Position numbers and translations under genes: made by a program. 64,000 nucleotides of DNA from an uncultured Saprospiraceae bacterium (GTDB lineage: Bacteria; Bacteroidota; Bacteroidia; Chitinophagales; Saprospiraceae). Each line of letters begins with the position of its first letter. Positions within the stretch are counted from its first letter, which is position 1. The stretch is taken from positions 1-64,000 of the forward strand of contig CALLFA010000041.1 of NCBI GenBank assembly GCA_937997635.1, written 5' to 3'. Below are positions 12,213 through 54,132 of this stretch, in pieces. A model generated the notes under the pieces. It was not told the DNA's origin. It did not search any database and saw only the letters and a list, made by a program, of their open reading frames with translations.

Positions 12213-12373
12213 TATACCAAAAGGAGAAAGGTTTGACTGATGTATTACGTAGAAGTTTTGTCTGTTGACAAGACGAAAAATGCAGTGAATGCAAGTATTC
12301 ACGTGTATTTTCAACGATGGGAACAGATAAACGATTAGGTACAAAGCGGTCAAACTATTTTCATTTTGGTATA
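12213..12373 (+). repeat. MITE-like repeat, copy 1 of 3 (161 bp)
   Basis: Begins TATACCAAAAGGAGAAAGG and ends TTTTCATTTTGGTATA; the ends are imperfect inverted repeats of about 27 bases. The centre has a small inverted repeat (GTGAAT and ATTCAC). It is in the opposite orientation to the copies at 19186 and 29698, and all three are exactly 161 bp. The frame that stays open in the other copies is broken by TGA here. There is no transposase in the window. It fills most of the gap between rnr and the 170-residue gene. Confidence 0.8.
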
Positions 12374-12380
12374 TGATTGA

Positions 12381-12893
12381 TTAATATTCTGAATCTTGTA
12401 AGGAGAAAATGATATCTCCTGTTGACAATATTTCAAAGGTCATGGACTTGCTCATGTCTGCATTATAATTTTGTGCATCTTCTTGTTGCTGTCCAGCCAC
12501 GATTGAAATAATATAATCCTCAGAAATGTTTGCTGCAGATTGGAATAAGCGTTCATTTTCATATCTAGATCCTGCAATACTTTTCCTAGATATCACTTGG
12601 TGTTTCCTGTCAAAGGTAACTAAAATATATTCATATGAATAAATCTTCCCTCTCCAATAGACAACGGCATCGAATTCTTCTGATTCTGCGAAACGGAAAC
12701 AAGGTTCGAATTCTGTAAACTCGTCTATGTCATCTTGTTCCATTGGTACTAGAAAGTTTTCTATCACGTGTTGTGGAAATGGCTTGTTGGCTTTCGCAAA
12801 TTCACCTCGACTATCAGAGGTAATGGTCACCGGTAATTCTACTACTGGAAAACAATCTAAAAAGTCTTGATATGAGGGGTCATTATTACTCAT
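12381..12893 (-). CDS. Hypothetical protein (170 aa)
   Basis: I do not recognise this family. The protein is acidic, has no signal peptide or membrane segment, and seems soluble and cytoplasmic. Visible features are an N-terminal segment with SYQDFLDCFPVVELPVTI, a central WRGKIYSYEYILVTFDR strand-rich stretch, and a C-terminal MTFEILSTGDIIFSLQ. The beginning and end look like a compact alpha/beta domain. It starts at ATG and ends only eight bases from the MITE-like repeat. It sits 64 bases downstream of the membrane protein gene on the same strand, so co-transcription is possible. Confidence 0.65.
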   Translation of the reverse strand: MSNNDPSYQDFLDCFPVVELPVTITSDSRGEFAKANKPFPQHVIENFLVPMEQDDIDEFTEFEPCFRFAESEEFDAVVYWRGKIYSYEYILVTFDRKHQVISRKSIAGSRYENERLFQSAANISEDYIISIVAGQQQEDAQNYNADMSKSMTFEILSTGDIIFSLQDSEY

Positions 12894-19185: not shown

Positions 19186-19346
19186 TATGCCAAAATGAAC
19201 ATAGTTTGACCGTTCTTTACTTGCTCTTTTATCTGTTCTCATCGTTGAAAATACTCGTGAATACCTGCATTTACTGCATTTTTCGTCTTGACAACAGACA
19301 AAAGGTCTCCGTAATAAATCAGTCAAATCATTCTGCTTTTGGTATA
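19186..19346 (-). repeat. MITE-like repeat, copy 2 of 3 (161 bp)
   Basis: Begins TATGCCAAAATGAACATAG and ends CTGCTTTTGGTATA. It is the same element as at 12213 but in the opposite orientation, and the same way round as the copy at 29698. It ends seven bases from the stop codon of the TonB-dependent receptor. The core CTCATCGTTGAAAATACTCG is shared with the copy at 29698. The minus strand keeps an open frame here, but similarity of that frame across copies is no better than that of the DNA. Confidence 0.8.
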
Positions 19347-19352
19347 AGATGT

Positions 19353-21389
19353 CTACAATCGAATGTTCACCCCAACATATACATTACGCTCCTGACTAGG
19401 TTCAAAAAATCGTGAACCAAAGGCATTGATTCGAATATTGTCATTGTAAAGTGTATTGAAAATATTATTCACACCAAAAAATGGCTTCAATTCTACAGAT
19501 CCCAATGGAAATTGAAAACCAGCATTTACATTAAATAATGAGTAAGCATTGTCTTCTACACTATTGGCATCATTTGTAAATAAACTACCAATATAACGAT
19601 GTTGCACACTCACCTGAATTTGGTCCGTCTGATATGCCAATTTCCAAGAACCTTGATGAATAGGGATCGCTGGCAACCGATTGCCACTAAATTGATTTCC
19701 ATTTATAAAAAAGTCATCATAAGTGAAATCAGAATAGCTGTACATACCTGAAGCTGTCCAGTTGTTCGCAAAGACGTATTGCCCAGATAATTCAATACCC
19801 AATCGGTTAGTAGATCCTGCATTTCTAAAAAACTCGCGATCGGGAAATTCTTCTAATTCAAAGGGCACTAAATCATTTTGTGACCGAACATAAAACAAGG
19901 CAAGATTTCCATTTAGTTTAGAACCATTCGCTGATAATCCTAATTCAAAATTATTTGCAGTCTGAGGATCCAGTGATGAGTTGAATCCACCTTCTCCACT
20001 AGGATTTGAAGATAACTCTGTTAATGCAGGTGTTTCAAAACTTTGTCTGAAATTGATGTAAGTAGAAAGCCCGTCAATCAAGCTATAATTAAAACCAAGG
20101 CTTTGTGAGAAATTGGACAAATTTATGGTACCTGAATCATCACCATTCGACAAAAAGGCGTCTGCAGCTTCTAAGCGATTGATGTCATATCGCAAGCCTA
20201 GAAACACACCGAGTTTGCCAAAGTTGGCAGAACCCAAATAATAAAAAGCAATATTTCTAAATGTTTCTAATTGGTCTAGAGTCTGGTCTCCTTGTACACC
20301 TTCATTGTTGAAAAAGCGTTGTCGGTCATCCGCTTGATTGGCAAAATCAAAGCCTATTTTACTCGAAATCACTCCATTTGTTTGTATGTGCTTTTGTGTC
20401 AAACTTGCACCAGCACCCCAATAGTCTCTGCCAAGATCAATCCACCCACCAAAACCAAAAGGCAGTAGACCAGTAAAGTTTCTTGCGGAATAAAAAGCAT
20501 ATGATTCCAGACTTGTGTTCTTTACTTTTAGTGGTGTCTCATAATGTACACTCAACTTAGTGTGGTTGATGCTTTCGCCAGTTTGGAACAACACATTTCT
20601 ATCGCGCGCCTGTCTTCTATTTTCTGCTACTAATTCGGCATTTATACCACCTGGGTCATCGGCAATAGGGCTGTTTGTATAATTAAAGCCTAACCGCAAT
20701 TGTCCACCAGAGTCAAAATCTTGAATCAATTTGATGTTTGCTGCATGTTGTTCTAAACTGCTTTGGTCCCTGTAGCCATCCAAACCAGTAAAGAGATAAT
20801 TAGCAATGACTGTCGTATTGTCAGAAACCCAACCACCATTCAATGAATATTTTTGAAGACCATAAGAACCCAATGTAGTCCCTGCTTCTAAGTAATTCTT
20901 ATCAACATTATCTAAAGTGCCAATGTAAATGACTCCTCCAGAAGCATTCCCATATAAGGATGATGAAGGGCCATTAATCACTTCAAGCGATGAGACTGTC
21001 GACAACATCAAATTGTCTAATTGGCCCTGACCATCTGGTGTGGTTTCAGGAATGCCATCGATAATCAATTTTACACCTCTGATGCCAAAGGCCGATCGAG
21101 CACCGAAGCCACGGATAGATATACGTAAATCTTGCGCATAATTAGAAGCATTCAAACTAAAAAGGCCTGGTGCTTCTGTGACGTATTCTTGTAAGGATAG
21201 CTGTGCTTTTAAAAAATTATTCTTGGTAAAATCTCTTTTGAAAACGGCTAGTGGTGTATTATTTGACTCATCAAAAATACGCAAAGACTTAATGGTCACC
21301 ACTTCAATACTGTCTTTAACGGTATCCTGCCCACTAAGACTTAACAACACACTCCAAAAACAAAACACCAGTAATAAACCTTTGCGCAT
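19353..21389 (-). CDS. TonB-dependent outer-membrane receptor
   Basis: 678 residues. A signal peptide (about 1-20, ending LSLSGQ) leads into a plug domain at about 45-160 with the usual landmarks SIRGFGARSAFGIRGVKLIIDGIP and EVINGPSSSLYGNASGGV in fragments. The rest is a 22-strand-type barrel, ending with the aromatic/hydrophobic C-terminus NVYVGVNIRL. There is no N-terminal carboxypeptidase-like extension and no SusD partner beside it, so it looks like a siderophore, metal or cobalamin transporter of the FecA/FhuA kind rather than a SusC. The substrate cannot be read. It stands alone, with the MITE-like repeat immediately downstream. Confidence 0.9.
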   Translation of the reverse strand: MRKGLLLVFCFWSVLLSLSGQDTVKDSIEVVTIKSLRIFDESNNTPLAVFKRDFTKNNFLKAQLSLQEYVTEAPGLFSLNASNYAQDLRISIRGFGARSAFGIRGVKLIIDGIPETTPDGQGQLDNLMLSTVSSLEVINGPSSSLYGNASGGVIYIGTLDNVDKNYLEAGTTLGSYGLQKYSLNGGWVSDNTTVIANYLFTGLDGYRDQSSLEQHAANIKLIQDFDSGGQLRLGFNYTNSPIADDPGGINAELVAENRRQARDRNVLFQTGESINHTKLSVHYETPLKVKNTSLESYAFYSARNFTGLLPFGFGGWIDLGRDYWGAGASLTQKHIQTNGVISSKIGFDFANQADDRQRFFNNEGVQGDQTLDQLETFRNIAFYYLGSANFGKLGVFLGLRYDINRLEAADAFLSNGDDSGTINLSNFSQSLGFNYSLIDGLSTYINFRQSFETPALTELSSNPSGEGGFNSSLDPQTANNFELGLSANGSKLNGNLALFYVRSQNDLVPFELEEFPDREFFRNAGSTNRLGIELSGQYVFANNWTASGMYSYSDFTYDDFFINGNQFSGNRLPAIPIHQGSWKLAYQTDQIQVSVQHRYIGSLFTNDANSVEDNAYSLFNVNAGFQFPLGSVELKPFFGVNNIFNTLYNDNIRINAFGSRFFEPSQERNVYVGVNIRL

Positions 21390-27383: not shown

Positions 27384-27413
27384 TAAAAAAAGGCCGTAGT
27401 TCACTACGACCTT
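27384..27413 (-). terminator. Intrinsic terminator beside tRNA-Asn fragment
   Basis: Read on the minus strand: AAGGTCGTAG, a TGAA loop, then CTACGGCCTT followed by a run of seven T. The stem has one mismatch. It sits four bases past the tRNA-Asn 3' fragment and would terminate a tRNA transcript if the tRNA had once been whole at this place. Confidence 0.7.
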
Positions 27414-27416
27414 CAT

Positions 27417-27455
27417 TGCGCTTCCTCAAGGACTTAAACCTTGGACCCTCTGATT
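27417..27455 (-). repeat. Duplicated 3' half of tRNA-Asn (att-like fragment)
   Basis: 39 bases identical but for one change to 28365-28403, which is the 3' half of tRNA-Asn from the anticodon stem through the T arm and acceptor to just past the discriminator base. No 5' half follows: the acceptor partner and D arm are missing. This is the pattern left by integration of an element into a tRNA 3' end, which restores a complete gene at one end and leaves a fragment at the other. The two copies are 948 bases apart. Confidence 0.75.
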
Positions 27456-28316
27456 CCATTTGGATCACTTGAGTAATTATGAAAAAATTAGTTTAGTGAG
27501 TCTTTTTGTATTATTATCCATCTTCTATTTTGTTTTATGTGGAGCAACTTACTTTGTCCATATTTACTCATAGCAAATGAAGAATTCTTCCAATTAAAGA
27601 TAAAGGAACAAAAAAACTATTTTTAAATCGGCTAGATTCCTTGAATAACCTTAAAGGTTTGAGAACAAATATAAAGATTATTGGACTTGATTTATCCAAA
27701 TAGGATGCTCTAAAAAATTATCTAAAATGTTTGAGTAAGCATACACTACTAAAAATAATCATTAATTTATTCAAAATTAAGCAAAAAGAAGTGAATTCGA
27801 AGTTAATGGTGACTCATTGTACAATTTGCGAAGAAAACAAATAAGAATCAATCAAATCAATCTCATTTATCGTCTATAACGGATCAACTAACCTAAAGCA
27901 AGTCAAATACTGTCAAATTGAACTAGATCAAAACAAGCAATACAATCACCTTTATTCATTAAACTTAGATTTCTTGTTTACTCTGCTCGGATATAAGACT
28001 CACTCGTTCCAACTCCCTACCTAAATTTTGAATTTTTTACATGCCCCGTCTAATTCGTTAGAAACCAATTTTGATTTGAAAATTTGAAATTTTACTTTTT
28101 AAACCCTTTGATTGACAAATTGCAGGCTGAAAACATTAGTATATTATTGATGTATAACATTGTAAGCTCTCGCAAACTCATTCTTAAAAATCATGAATAT
28201 TCTTCCAAATAGCATGGTTGTTATGATACAGGTTAGCTTTCCAGAACATACTGCTATTGATCTTCATCTATCAATATTCACTATTATACCTTAACTTTGT
28301 TATGAAAATGTTCATA
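27456..28316. other. Gene-free AT-rich segment between tRNA-Asn copies
   Basis: About 0.86 kb, strongly AT-rich, with no open frame of useful length on either strand and no integrase or other recognisable gene. If the flanking tRNA copies are att sites, this is a decayed or very small integrated element. I see no internal repeats. Confidence 0.5.
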
Positions 28317-28355
28317 ATAAAAAAGGAGCTATAATCGTATTTGATCATAACTCCT
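28317..28355 (-). terminator. Intrinsic terminator downstream of tRNA-Asn
   Basis: On the minus strand AGGAGTTAT and ATAGCTCCT pair (one G-T) around a 14-base loop and are followed by six T. It lies about 12 bases past the tRNA 3' end. Confidence 0.75.
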
Positions 28356-28366
28356 TGATAATGATG

Positions 28367-28440
28367 CGCTTCCTCAAGGACTTGAACCTTGGACCCTCTG
28401 ATTAACAGTCAGATGCTCTAACCAGCTGAGCTAAGGAAGC
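28367..28440 (-). tRNA. tRNA-Asn (anticodon GTT)
   Basis: A 74-base cloverleaf on the minus strand. The acceptor GCTTCCT pairs with AGGAAGC and the discriminator base is G, as expected for Asn. The D arm contains AGCTCAGCTGGTTAGAGC. The anticodon stem TCTGA/TCAGA encloses CTGTTAA with anticodon GTT, and the T arm contains GGTTCAAGTCC. CCA is not encoded. A terminator follows. The 3' half is repeated at 27417. Confidence 0.93.
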
Positions 28441-28532
28441 ATTCAGCGGCTGCAAATTTAAGATTCCTTCCAATATTCTGCAATAGACAGGCATAAATAT
28501 TTAAAATTAGTATATCTCTTGTTGATTCACTA

Positions 28533-29042
28533 TCAAAAGTGTGATCTATACTTGTTTTTAGCCATGGAGGCTCCATTAGAGACACCGGCTACATATACTC
28601 TTTTGGTGTCGTGTTCGTAGTTTAGCGCGATTTTTTCTATTAAACTATTAATGAACAAGACATCATCAGTAGATGGGTTTCCAGATGCATCTGCTCTGCA
28701 GTCATTCCATCCGCGTTTTCCTTCAGGACCTTTTTCTCCATTTGGGACAACCACAATAAATTCTTGCTCATGTGCTAAATCAAGCCAAACTTTCTGAGGA
28801 GCATTTCCTATTCCCTTTCCAATACTTTGATTAGCACTTCCACCATGTCCATGAAGTAAAATAACGAGAGGCTTGCTTTTTGAATCCTTGGGATATTGGA
28901 TATGATATTCTCGAGTAATATCATGTATTGATATTGTTTGATCTCTTTTTAAAATGGTGTTCCTGGTCGTTTGAGTTTTATTGACAGCGCAAGAACCAAA
29001 AAACAGAACAGTTGATATAATAAGTACAGCATAAATTCTCAT
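28533..29042 (-). pseudogene. Truncated lipoprotein esterase (PHB depolymerase/feruloyl esterase-like)
   Basis: 169 residues from the ATG at 29042. A lipoprotein signal (MRIYAVLIISTVLFFGSC) precedes an alpha/beta-hydrolase of the LpqC/feruloyl-esterase kind: LVILLHGHGGSANQS for the oxyanion region, VVVPNGEKG, GWNDCRAD, and the nucleophile elbow GVSNGAS near 160. Relatives continue for about 120 residues with the catalytic Asp and His. Here similarity stops right after the nucleophile, and the frame ends 12 residues later without a continuation in another frame. The break lies about 100 bases from tRNA-Asn, so loss of the 3' part probably accompanied rearrangement at that tRNA. It may still be transcribed but should be inactive. 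Confidence 0.7.
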
Positions 29043-29346
29043 ATTCAAAATTAATAAATGTTTTATATAGATATAGTTGAATGACAAGTATAACAGAAAT
29101 CAAACAAGAAATAAATGACATGAACAATTTGACGAAACATTAACTTGACTTAGGATAAGCATTGTTGGCTATGACGCACCAATATTTGTTTGGGGTTTAG
29201 CAAAATATGAAATAAGTTGAGGTGTAGGATAAAGCGTACCAAAAATAAATAGGACTTTAAATTTCATTTTATTTCTACAAGATTATTGGATTAAGAAGCC
29301 AATAGAATAAACATAAGGTATTTTACAACATCTATAGATAGAGGTC
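29043..29346. other. Intergenic region without recognised features
   Basis: About 300 AT-rich bases between the truncated esterase and a small membrane protein. No open frame, strong hairpin or repeat from the other families was found. Confidence 0.5.
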
Positions 29347-29643
29347 TTATGAGATAAATATGAGTAATACCGCTAATAGAATTATCACCAAATTTACCAA
29401 AGGAACAAACAATAAAAATTTTGTTCCTATACTCATGCTACTAAGTTTTTGTTTTTTGATTACTGTATATTTATATACATTAAATGATCCAATCAAAACA
29501 AACAGAATCAGGACCAGTAAAATTATCAAAGTAAATACACTACTTGCAAATGCAATAATGGTGGTTAGAAAAACACTTAACGATAGAATGGCTAAGAGAA
29601 TAAACAAATTGACAATTGAAATAAGCGTATCTGTTGTCGTCAT
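29347..29643 (-). CDS. Small membrane protein (98 aa)
   Basis: From the ATG at 29643 the product has three hydrophobic helices at about 7-30, 33-57 and 73-97, separated by a basic loop (YKYTVIKKQKL). I recognise no family. The open frame runs further upstream into the MITE-like repeat, but that part is repeat-derived and should not be included. An overlapping plus-strand frame of similar length is less hydrophobic, more biased to Asn, Ile and Thr, and is judged a shadow. Function unknown. Confidence 0.5.
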   Translation of the reverse strand: MTTTDTLISIVNLFILLAILSLSVFLTTIIAFASSVFTLIILLVLILFVLIGSFNVYKYTVIKKQKLSSMSIGTKFLLFVPLVNLVIILLAVLLIFIS

Positions 29644-29697
29644 ATGGTAGTCTTTTCTTAAACGCGTAAATGTTACTTTGTTTAGCAAAATACAACT

Positions 29698-29858
29698 TTT
29701 ACCAAAATGAAAATAATTTGACCGGTTCTTACTTAATCTTTTATCTGTTCTCATCGTTGAAAATACTCGTGAATACCTGCATTCACTGCGTTTTTCGTCT
29801 TGACAACAAACAACACTTCTACGTAATAAAACAGTCAAACCATTCTCCTTTTGGTATA
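29698..29858 (-). repeat. MITE-like repeat, copy 3 of 3 (161 bp)
   Basis: Begins TTTACCAAAATGAAAATAA and ends CTCCTTTTGGTATA, with the same inner GTGAAT/ATTCAC inverted repeat as the other copies. It lies 55 bases upstream of the small membrane protein gene and so could carry its promoter, and 60 bases after the stop of the 307-residue gene. Confidence 0.8.
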
Positions 29859-29918
29859 AGTTCCAGTATTTTAAAAATACATGTTTATTAGGGTGATGCT
29901 GACTATATCACTCTTGTC

Positions 29919-32683: not shown

Positions 32684-33073
32684 ATGTATCGAAAATATAT
32701 GTATGTACTCATCTTAGTTATTTGCACTATTCATCTCATCTCAGCTAAAGATATAGCCGGATCCTATAATGAAAAAGCAACACAGAGAATAGTATTTGTC
32801 CATGTGCAATCGGCACTCCCAGATGAGGCAAATCAAGAAATAAGAGAACTGGTAAAAAAAATATGCCAACATACTGTCGACGAGGTAATTGAAATATTAG
32901 ATGGTAATGTATTGTCAATCAACCTCAATCCAATTGATGACACCATAGAAATAACCGATCGTTTCCAAATACTGACAGACAATCAGTTGAGAATTTTGGA
33001 AATGAATATGATGGAATTGTTGACAGTGGTAGATGCTACAACAACACTGCACATTACAATTGCATGGTTGTGA
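32684..33073 (+). CDS. Small secreted hypothetical protein (129 aa)
   Basis: Starting at the ATG at 32684 the product has a signal peptide (YMYVLILVICTIHLISA) and about 105 further residues that look like a small alpha/beta domain: RIVFVHVQSALPDEANQEIR, VDEVIEILDGNVLSINLNP, RFQILTDNQLRILEMNMMEL. I recognise no family. A TTG start seven codons upstream is possible but not needed. Palindromic repeats follow immediately after its stop. Confidence 0.55.
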   Translation: MYRKYMYVLILVICTIHLISAKDIAGSYNEKATQRIVFVHVQSALPDEANQEIRELVKKICQHTVDEVIEILDGNVLSINLNPIDDTIEITDRFQILTDNQLRILEMNMMELLTVVDATTTLHITIAWL

Positions 33074-33914
33074 GTCCCATAAAGATTAAATATAGGTAGG
33101 CATGACACATATGTAAATCATTATGCCGTAGATACAAAACGTGATTTTACCATATCATCCTTTAATGATAGTTTTTATGATATGCTGAGGCGAGACGCCT
33201 ACAGCGACGCACCAAATATTGCTAGTCATTGCACACATATAAATCATTGTGCCGTAGGTACTAAACGTGATCTTACAATTAAGAGCATAGTCGTGTCTCC
33301 ACATTCCGTACCTAACGGCACGGGGAATACATTCAATTTAATATACTACCCACATGTCGTCCCTACGGGACAATGATTAACCTATATTGCGCACTGAGTT
33401 GATCAGCTCATAGTCCCATAGGGACTAAATATTGGTAGGCATTGCACATATAAATCATTGTGCCGTAGGTACAAAATGTGATCCTACATTAAGAGCATAG
33501 TCGTGTATCCACATTTCGTACCTAACGGCACGGGGAATACATTCAATTTAATATACTACCCACATGTCGTCCCTACGGGACAATGTTTAACATATATTGC
33601 GCACTGAGGTAATCAGCTCATAGTCCCATCGGGACTAAATATTGGTAGGCATTGCACACAAATAAATCATTGTGCCGTAGGTACAAAATGTGATTTTACA
33701 ATATCATCCTTTAAATGATGGTTTTTATGATATGCTGAGGCGAGACGCCTACAGCGACACACTAAATATTGGTAGACACATATAAATCATTGTTCCGTAG
33801 GTACAAAACGTGATTTTACAATATCATCCTTTAATGTCTTTATGATTATGCTGAGGCGAGACGCCTGCAGCGACGCATACCGCCTATAGTGACACACACT
33901 TACAACGATGCACC
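33074..33914. repeat. Palindromic intergenic repeat array (GTCCC-GGGAC family, 210-bp unit)
   Basis: Units start with TAGTCCCATAGGGACTAAAT at 33411 and 33621 (210 bases apart), with partial units at about 33073, 33200 and 33770. Each unit also has the conserved pieces GTGCCGTAGGTAC, CGTACCTAACGGCACGG and GTCGTCCCTACGGGACAAT, all small palindromes or inverted pairs. The AGGCGAGACGCCT core is inserted at 33184, 33735 and 33850. A short open frame within it is repeat-derived. The array fills the gap between convergent genes. Related units are at 51950. Confidence 0.85.
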
Positions 33915-51840: not shown

Positions 51841-52843
51841 TGGTTAACTGTTGAAATAAATCGTGAGGTACAGAGACCTTCGATTCAGTTATCATCAATA
51901 ATGACCTTTTTACGAATTTTATATTTTGTGAATCTTCAATTATTTAAATAGTCCCGTGGGGACTAAATATTGGTAGTCATTATGTACATACAAAATCGTT
52001 GTGCCGTAGGTACAAAACGTGATCTTCCAGCATAGTCGAGTACACAGATTCCGTACCTAACGGCACGGCAATTATATTACATTAATTATACTACCCACAT
52101 ATTGTCCCTACGGGACAATTATCATCCCACATTGTTTGTATCATAGTAAAAGGTAAGAGGTACAGACCTTTGCCTCAGTATTCATCTTAAAAAAGCGAGT
52201 AAGACTTCTATGCACATATAATGCTTATTAAATAGTCCCATAGGGACTAAATATTGGTAGTCATTAACACATACAAAATCGTTGCGCTGTAGGTACAAAA
52301 AGTGTTCTTACAGCAAAGTCGTGTACACACATTCCGTACCTAACGGCACGGCAATTATATTACATTAATTATACTACCCACATATTGTCCCTAAGGGACA
52401 ATTATCATCTCACATTGTTTGTATCATAGTAAAAGGCAAGAGGTACAGACCTTTGCCTCAGTATTCATCTTAAAAAAGCAAGTAAGACTTCTATGCACAT
52501 ATAATTCTTATTAAATAGTCGCGTAGGGACTTAATATTGGTAGTCATTATGTACATACAAATAGTTGTGCCGTAGGTACAAAACGTTTTCTTACAGCATA
52601 GTCGTGTACACACATTCCGTACCTAACGGCACAGCAATTATATTACCCACATATTGTTACTACGGGACAATATCATCTCACATTGACTGCGCTGATTAGA
52701 CAGGTCATTAATACTGGTTTTATGAGTGTGAAATTGTGCGCTATAAATTTTACATTTTGTGAATCCTCACAAGAACCAATGCTACTCTATGATTTAATTA
52801 AATAGTCCTATAAGAACTACATATTGGTAGTTGTCCCATTGTA
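51841..52843. repeat. Tandem array of 283-bp palindrome-rich repeats
   Basis: Units begin TAGTCCCGTGGGGAC at 51950, TAGTCCCATAGGGAC at 52233 and TAGTCGCGTAGGGAC at 52516: exactly 283 bases apart each time. A shortened fourth unit starts at about 52803. Each contains the small palindromes GTGCCGTAGGTAC, TACCTAACGGCAC and TTGTCCCTACGGGACAA, plus a non-palindromic spacer with GTAAAAGG and AGGTACAGACCTTTGCCTC. Units are close to identical, so the amplification is recent. There is no open frame of note. The first 110 bases after the serpin gene hold only a partial spacer. Confidence 0.88.
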
Positions 52844-53236
52844 TTATAAAAAGGACTGTATACTCTTGACCACTTCCAAAAATTCGTCTCTCGACAACTG
52901 CAATTTCGGTGAGCGAAAATCCATATCAGCCATTCTATTAATTGGAATTAAATGGACGTGAGCATGAGGTACTTCAAGTCCTATCACGGCAACACCTACA
53001 CGATCACAGGGATATGCTTGTTTAATGGCTTTTGCTATCTGTTGTGAAAAGAGAGTTAATTCGGAAAGTATGGCAGGTTCTAAATCATAATATCTATCTA
53101 CCTCGACCTTAGGAACAACGAGTGTATGTCCTTTCTGCAATGGATTGATGTCTAGGAACGCAAAGCAGTGTTCGTTTTCGGCGATCTTATAGCTTGGGAT
53201 TTCTCCATTGATGATTTTAGTAAAAATACTTGCCAT
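52844..53236 (-). CDS. HIT-family nucleotide hydrolase
   Basis: 130 residues, the usual size for HinT-like proteins. The signature HAHVHLIPIN near 94-103 is the histidine triad, with the catalytic His in the middle. The N-terminus SIFTKIINGEIPSYKI is typical. It hydrolyses purine nucleoside phosphoramidates or related adenylates in the cytoplasm. It starts at ATG one base after the stop of greA on the same strand, and so belongs to a greA-HIT unit; this pair is common in Bacteroidota. Confidence 0.92.
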   Translation of the reverse strand: MASIFTKIINGEIPSYKIAENEHCFAFLDINPLQKGHTLVVPKVEVDRYYDLEPAILSELTLFSQQIAKAIKQAYPCDRVGVAVIGLEVPHAHVHLIPINRMADMDFRSPKLQLSRDEFLEVVKSIQSFL

Positions 53237-53971: not shown

Positions 53972-54070
53972 TGCTTATCAAGAAAGGTGGAGGGAAAGGC
54001 CCTATGAAACCTTAGCAACCTGTCGCTAGACAAGGTGCTAATTCCTAACTGCATTGCAGTATAGATAATC
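53972..54070 (+). promoter_or_regulatory. SAM-I (S-box) riboswitch
   Basis: Contains the S-box conserved parts in order: CTTATCAAGAAAGGTGGAGG, then GGCCCTATGAAACCTTAGCA, a stem with CCTGTCGCTAGACAAGG, then GGTGCTAATTCC and a closing GATAAT that pairs with TTATC to make P1. It is expected to turn down expression of the following gene when S-adenosylmethionine is plentiful. No clear terminator lies between it and the ATG, so control may act on translation or by a structure I cannot recognise. Confidence 0.93.
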
Positions 54071-54132
54071 TAAAACATAACTTAATTCCAATTCTTCTTT
54101 TCTTGATTTGTATGCCATGTAAAACAATGCAT

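Follow-up and report, generated by a model that had tools for sequence, protein, structure and literature searches.

The stretch of DNA that was analysed (hereafter the window) comprises 64,000 nt of a draft assembly of 5.36 Mb in 252 contigs, estimated to be 88.8% complete. ARAGORN detected a single tRNA gene in the window, an intact tRNA-Asn(GTT) at 28366-28440 on the minus strand that was also recognised by Rfam (RF00005). This gene shares a direct repeat of 39 nt (97% identity, i.e. one mismatch) with a second site at a spacing of 948 nt. The proximal, attL-like copy occupies 28365-28403 and the distal, attR-like copy 27417-27455, both on the minus strand. The repeat consists of the last 38 bases of the tRNA (positions 38-75) and the base that follows, and the lone mismatch is a C-to-T change that affects the T loop in the distal copy. 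The best match to the 39-mer elsewhere in the window, on either strand, extended to 22 of 39 bases and therefore a chance origin of the repeat is excluded. Each copy is followed by a terminator-like hairpin on the minus strand, located at 28323-28356 behind the intact tRNA and at 27389-27414 behind the distal fragment, as compared to a mean of 0.7 such hairpins in 50 shuffles of the region. These comparisons agree with a preliminary description of the locus, which had reported one repetition of the tRNA-Asn 3′ half over 39 bases with one change at a distance of 948 bases, and a separate terminator for each copy. Upstream of the intact tRNA lie a conserved promoter region (28441-28486, minus strand) and a fragment of a PHB-depolymerase-type esterase gene (PF10503; 28533-29042, minus strand; 169 aa).

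Gene content of the segment between the repeat copies

The segment between the copies (27456-28364; 909 bases, 28% GC) had been described as lacking a gene, and the longest start-to-stop reading frame located wholly between the copies encodes 43 aa. Searches with the DNA of this insert yielded zero matches to phages and plasmids. Among 398 genomes of the family, matches outside of the source genome were limited to stretches of 23-53 nt in 15 genomes; these were scattered along the query with a best E value of 7e-5 and were taken as chance similarities. Comparison with the loci from L077 onward returned a locus of the same contig as the sole match, and no second copy of the insert was found in the source genome, of which 88.8% is represented in the assembly. 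Reading frames of the insert with stops written as X matched no Pfam family (three of six frames), no PHROGs family (two of six) and nothing in phages and plasmids by tblastn (one of six). No RNA family except tRNA reached its gathering score in Rfam, predicted folding of the insert did not exceed that of shuffled sequences (z -0.42) and internal repeats, as candidate arm sites, were likewise not above shuffles. A search of viral contigs for an attP site, using the 38-nt tRNA pattern, gave no exact match.

Two potential signatures of origin were considered and rejected. The most open frame of the insert contains 13 stops (21-34 in the other frames) and could have been read as a decayed gene; however, a frame as open occurred in 5.6% of shuffles. 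Base composition was considered as a sign of foreign origin, but a region outside of the insert (29100-29900) is equally AT-rich (29.5% versus 28.2%).

tRNA-Asn loci of congeneric genomes

Two congeneric genomes, G001 and G002, served for comparison. In both, the same 75 bases of tRNA-Asn run directly and uninterrupted into a terminator. The preliminary description had proposed looking for such an uninterrupted junction in strains without an island, and it is present in both of these island-free congeners. The sequence flanking the distal copy matched the G001 terminator at 27 of 29 bases (score 48, with none of 1000 shuffles scoring as well) and also resembled the G002 terminator (score 22, p 0.009). 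The flank of the proximal copy, including the hairpin behind the intact tRNA, was unrelated to the terminators of G001 and G002 (scores of 16 and 14, p 0.245 and 0.461, respectively). Over 71 nt, positions 27385-27455 exhibited 91.5% and 84.5% identity to the contiguous tRNA and terminator of G001 and G002, respectively. At the other end, 28365-28486 was 91% identical to G002 over 123 nt and therefore the 46 bases preceding the tRNA are conserved; similarity upstream of the tRNA was also detected with G001 (p 0.001).

When the insert was omitted and the flanks were joined, a single alignment ran from promoter through tRNA to terminator with both congeners. This comparison was performed for six relatives (i.e. 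G001, G002, G021, G018, G019 and G012). The joined version scored higher in three of these (G001, G002 and G012) and the version as found slightly higher in the other three (G021, G018 and G019). Downstream of the tRNA, the sequences of G021, G018, G019 and G012 resembled neither flank (p 0.087-0.837 for the distal and 0.062-0.611 for the proximal flank), such that only two of the six relatives, the congeners, told the flanks apart. As the ancestral terminator lies behind the distal copy, the distal fragment is the original 3′ end of the tRNA gene in a displaced position. The congener comparisons thus assign the promoter, the 5′ half of the tRNA, the distal 3′ half and the terminator of this half to the host, and indicate that the intervening DNA is external and supplied the tRNA with a substitute 3′ end and another terminator. 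The replaced terminator reveals which half of the tRNA belongs to the host and which is foreign, and provides an internal proof.

tRNA-Asn elements in other genomes

A complete element at tRNA-Asn was found on contig C13 of G056, a genome from another family of the same order. The intact tRNA-Asn (461637-461711, minus strand) is accompanied, 45.4 kb downstream and in the same orientation, by a displaced 3′ half (416260-416307, minus strand) that is identical to tRNA positions 28-75 at 48 of 48 bases; by eye, a different hairpin-like sequence follows each copy. Between the copies, 141 nt from the fragment, lies a gene for an integrase of 405 aa with Arm-DNA-bind_5, Phage_int_SAM_5 and Phage_integrase domains. 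The interval between the copies holds 33 open reading frames of ≥150 aa. Besides the integrase, the ten frames that were scanned include a TrwC relaxase and a coupling protein of the TraG/TraD type. Genes for a DNA polymerase III alpha subunit and an IMS-type polymerase were also observed in this interval (C13:416260-461711; L242-L244). The preliminary description had suggested seeking, in close relatives, a full island in which a tyrosine integrase lies between the copies. G056 has such an island, though this genome is not a close relative.

When GTDB genomes were searched with the tRNA 3′ end, at least 80 loci were recovered. According to ARAGORN, 69 of the 80 loci listed lay in a full tRNA. 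Another six were clear orphan halves (L102, L118, L119, L131, L140 and L165), one orphan-looking half (L122) started 21 bases from a contig end and four loci (L106, L116, L129 and L173) were cut by a contig end. Within the 398 genomes of the family, the tRNA 3′ end was detected with up to three mismatches at 58 places in 54 genomes. The 56 places outside of the genome that contains the window comprised 48 full tRNA-Asn genes, one tRNA-Met, four sites cut by contig ends and three orphan halves (i.e. the Saprospiraceae loci L102, L118 and L131). Among the 58 places, two copies on one contig occurred in the genome of the window only.

One of these orphan halves, in the Saprospiraceae genome MAG-107 (L118; longer version L175), lies 134 nt from a gene for an Arm-type integrase of 420 aa that has the same domain make-up as the G056 enzyme. 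Beyond this gene are two further tyrosine recombinases, RadC and a pair of SIR2-like and HerA-like proteins, a pair that recalls what we take to be a known anti-phage system. The MAG-107 element spans 9393-16956 of L175, and the intact tRNA-Asn of this genome is on a different contig (L176) from the displaced half. The insert of the window exhibited no similarity to this element.

The window, G056 and MAG-107 have in common the target, tRNA-Asn, and a displaced 3′ half with a separate terminator behind it. The G056 and MAG-107 elements differ from the window in having an Arm-type integrase close to the fragment, cargo and, for G056, conjugation genes. Their repeats also extend further into the anticodon stem-loop. 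The six clear orphan halves and the G056 fragment all retain TGTT, part of the anticodon loop, ahead of AATCAG, whereas the distal fragment of the window starts at AATCAG and lacks TGTT. The element in the window may have used the T region for crossover, or the edge of the fragment may have decayed. tRNA-Asn is an integration target in Saprospiraceae and in other Bacteroidota, and tRNA-Asn elements elsewhere bear conjugation genes or the SIR2-like/HerA-like pair. A literature search found no account of tRNA-Asn integration sites in Bacteroidetes; we do not claim this target as unreported.

Two other types of arrangement were observed during these comparisons. At 42-629 of L140, a frame resembling a serine recombinase (by eye) lies near the orphan tRNA-Asn half at 787. 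Matches to Arm-type integrases were found directly downstream of tRNA-Met at L085 65-1472 (G011:C207) and L238 3020-3094 (G037:C264), indicating that tRNA-Met is likely a second integration target in the order.

Probable origin of the insert and a likely neighbouring breakpoint

The congener junctions, the ancestral terminator behind the distal copy and the complete element in G056 argue strongly that the locus is, as first proposed, the scar of an element inserted at the 3′ end of the tRNA. Very probably, this was a mobile element that integrated site-specifically at tRNA-Asn and subsequently lost its genes, including the integrase gene, leaving a remnant that resembles a CIME. Such an element would have carried, in its attachment site, the tRNA 3′ end (positions 38-75) with its own terminator. 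Integration would have rebuilt the tRNA gene at one junction, so that the 3′ half of the intact tRNA would be supplied by the element, and would have displaced the original 3′ half and terminator of the host to the far junction. Later internal deletion would have removed the genes of the element and left 948 bases from repeat to repeat. The responsible enzyme was presumably a tyrosine integrase. We infer that this insert formerly bore genes because such elements normally contain them; of the original proposal, the insertion is borne out whilst the later loss of genes stays an inference, with no recognisable remnant in the insert. Counting against this explanation are the absence of an integrase or other remnant from the insert, the absence of a homologue, a fragment edge that is unlike those of other displaced halves, and the comparison with six relatives, of which only the congeners told the flanks apart and three favoured the version as found by a slight margin; the AT-richness of the insert is not diagnostic either.

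Such events are common in bacteria and the general phenomenon is well known. In the part of the Islander report drawn on here (PMC4383910), a 3′ fragment accompanies 3760 of 3919 islands, island sizes peak at 13.6 and 39.9 kbp, crossover subsites in the anticodon loop and T region are distinguished and the authors state that they know only tyrosine integrases at tRNA genes. As in the islands described there, the window has a regenerated tRNA gene at one end and a displaced fragment of its 3′ end in the same orientation at the other. The window differs from those islands in that its scar measures 0.95 kb and is devoid of cargo and of a gene for a tyrosine integrase. Screens that depend on an integrase being present, as Islander does, would overlook this scar. 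In the consulted sections of PMC9897764, incomplete tRNA genes that remain after integration are said to be common and widespread in prokaryotes; the window resembles those cases in having a partial tRNA gene as attR, but the archaeal examples given there enclose ~9-23 kb as compared to 0.95 kb. The locus also resembles a CIME (cis-mobilizable element) in that attL and attR ends are kept whilst genes for integration and transfer are gone; relative to CIMEs as portrayed in the portion of PMC5704250 used here, the insert retains no recognisable gene. For descent from an ICE or IME, the comparisons gave no homologue of the insert and an ICE-like element, that of G056, at the same tRNA. The locus would be a compact, clear-cut example of an integrated element of which only the ends persist.

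Among alternative origins, the foremost is that the 948-base unit is a complete, gene-free miniature element, a tRNA-targeted counterpart of a MITE mobilised by an integrase in trans. The lack of any gene remnant or of a frame above 43 aa would fit this origin, and the single mismatch in 39 bases suggests no great age. A source of integrase is also conceivable, as the matches listed for the source genome include nine to Phage_integrase (none of those listed for PF00589 being on the contig of the window) and five places in this genome are similar to the MAG-107 integrase, the best being on contig C58. A family of miniature elements would however be expected to provide several copies with the same ends, and the insert is present once in its own genome, has no homologue beyond short stretches in the 397 other genomes of the family and has no internal repeats above shuffles that could act as arm sites. 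We therefore consider this origin unlikely relative to that of an element that lost its genes.

A tandem duplication of tRNA-Asn, one copy of which then lost its 5′ half through decay, would likewise explain, with no mobile element involved, why part of the gene recurs in the same orientation at a spacing of 948 bases. Such a duplication predicts the ancestral terminator behind both copies, and this was found behind the distal copy only. The repeat has a sharp edge, with one change in 39 bases and then nothing of the 5′ half; the 97 bases upstream of this fragment were unlike the tRNA 5′ half (p 0.88) and unlike the promoter plus 5′ half (p 1.0), and an end-anchored alignment gave no similarity either (p 0.58). 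Duplication and decay is thus very improbable. A misjoin of two sequences at the 39-base repeat might be suspected in an incomplete draft of 252 contigs, particularly as contigs of other genomes end within tRNA-Asn. A chance join would not, however, have placed the ancestral terminator behind the distal copy. Also against a misjoin, a homologue (56% identity) of the TonB receptor located behind tRNA-Asn in G002 lies at 19353-21389 on the contig of the window, ~7 kb downstream and in the matching orientation. An assembly error is accordingly hardly credible. Acquisition of a foreign tRNA-Asn 3′ end and adjacent DNA through illegitimate or homologous recombination would account for the absent integrase and the unusual repeat edge, but a rebuilt gene with a displaced 3′ half in the same orientation is the exact product of a tRNA-targeted integrase, seen complete in G056, and this origin is highly doubtful.

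Site-specific integration and gene loss do not extend to the truncated esterase. The fragment stops after the GVSNGASMA nucleophile elbow, and alignments with 60 relatives break off at residue 158-163 of the fragment, corroborating the earlier statement that the gene is cut right after the elbow; three full homologues have lengths of 293, 294 and 328 aa. A search of the source genome (88.8% complete) for the missing half, with the 328-aa homologue as query, recovered the fragment only. The cut is located 5′ of the tRNA, on its promoter side, and at neither end of the repeated segment. As this position is beyond the tRNA promoter, integration at the tRNA 3′ end cannot explain the truncation. 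A second, independent rearrangement is likely to have had its breakpoint 5′ of tRNA-Asn, in the putative interval 28487-28555 between promoter and cut esterase, in line with the second rearrangement that had been raised as a possibility. The neighbourhood of the tRNA has been altered on this side. In G002, a gene for 640 aa lies directly upstream of tRNA-Asn, and in G001 its homologue of 649 aa is two open reading frames further up. The genome of the window has a homologue of this gene on contig C228, with another gene as its neighbour, and a search of 20,000 of the 20,210 bases of this contig revealed no tRNA.

Other features of the window were also recorded. A MITE-like repeat of ~160 bases with imperfect terminal inverted repeats is present at 29697-29860 (plus strand), 12213-12382 (minus) and 19190-19348 (plus), and at 13973-14132 of L045 on the same contig, with copies ~90% identical. 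None was detected in a further 83.7 kb of loci from the source genome or in the loci of relatives that were compared. The esterase fragment is 650 bases away from one of the copies, and as single-stranded DNA the repeat is predicted to fold better than shuffles (z -3.19). A SAM riboswitch was detected at 53972-54071 (plus strand; 86 bits). The intergenic regions 33067-33894 and 51944-52848 have in common families of related direct repeats, with up to eight copies.
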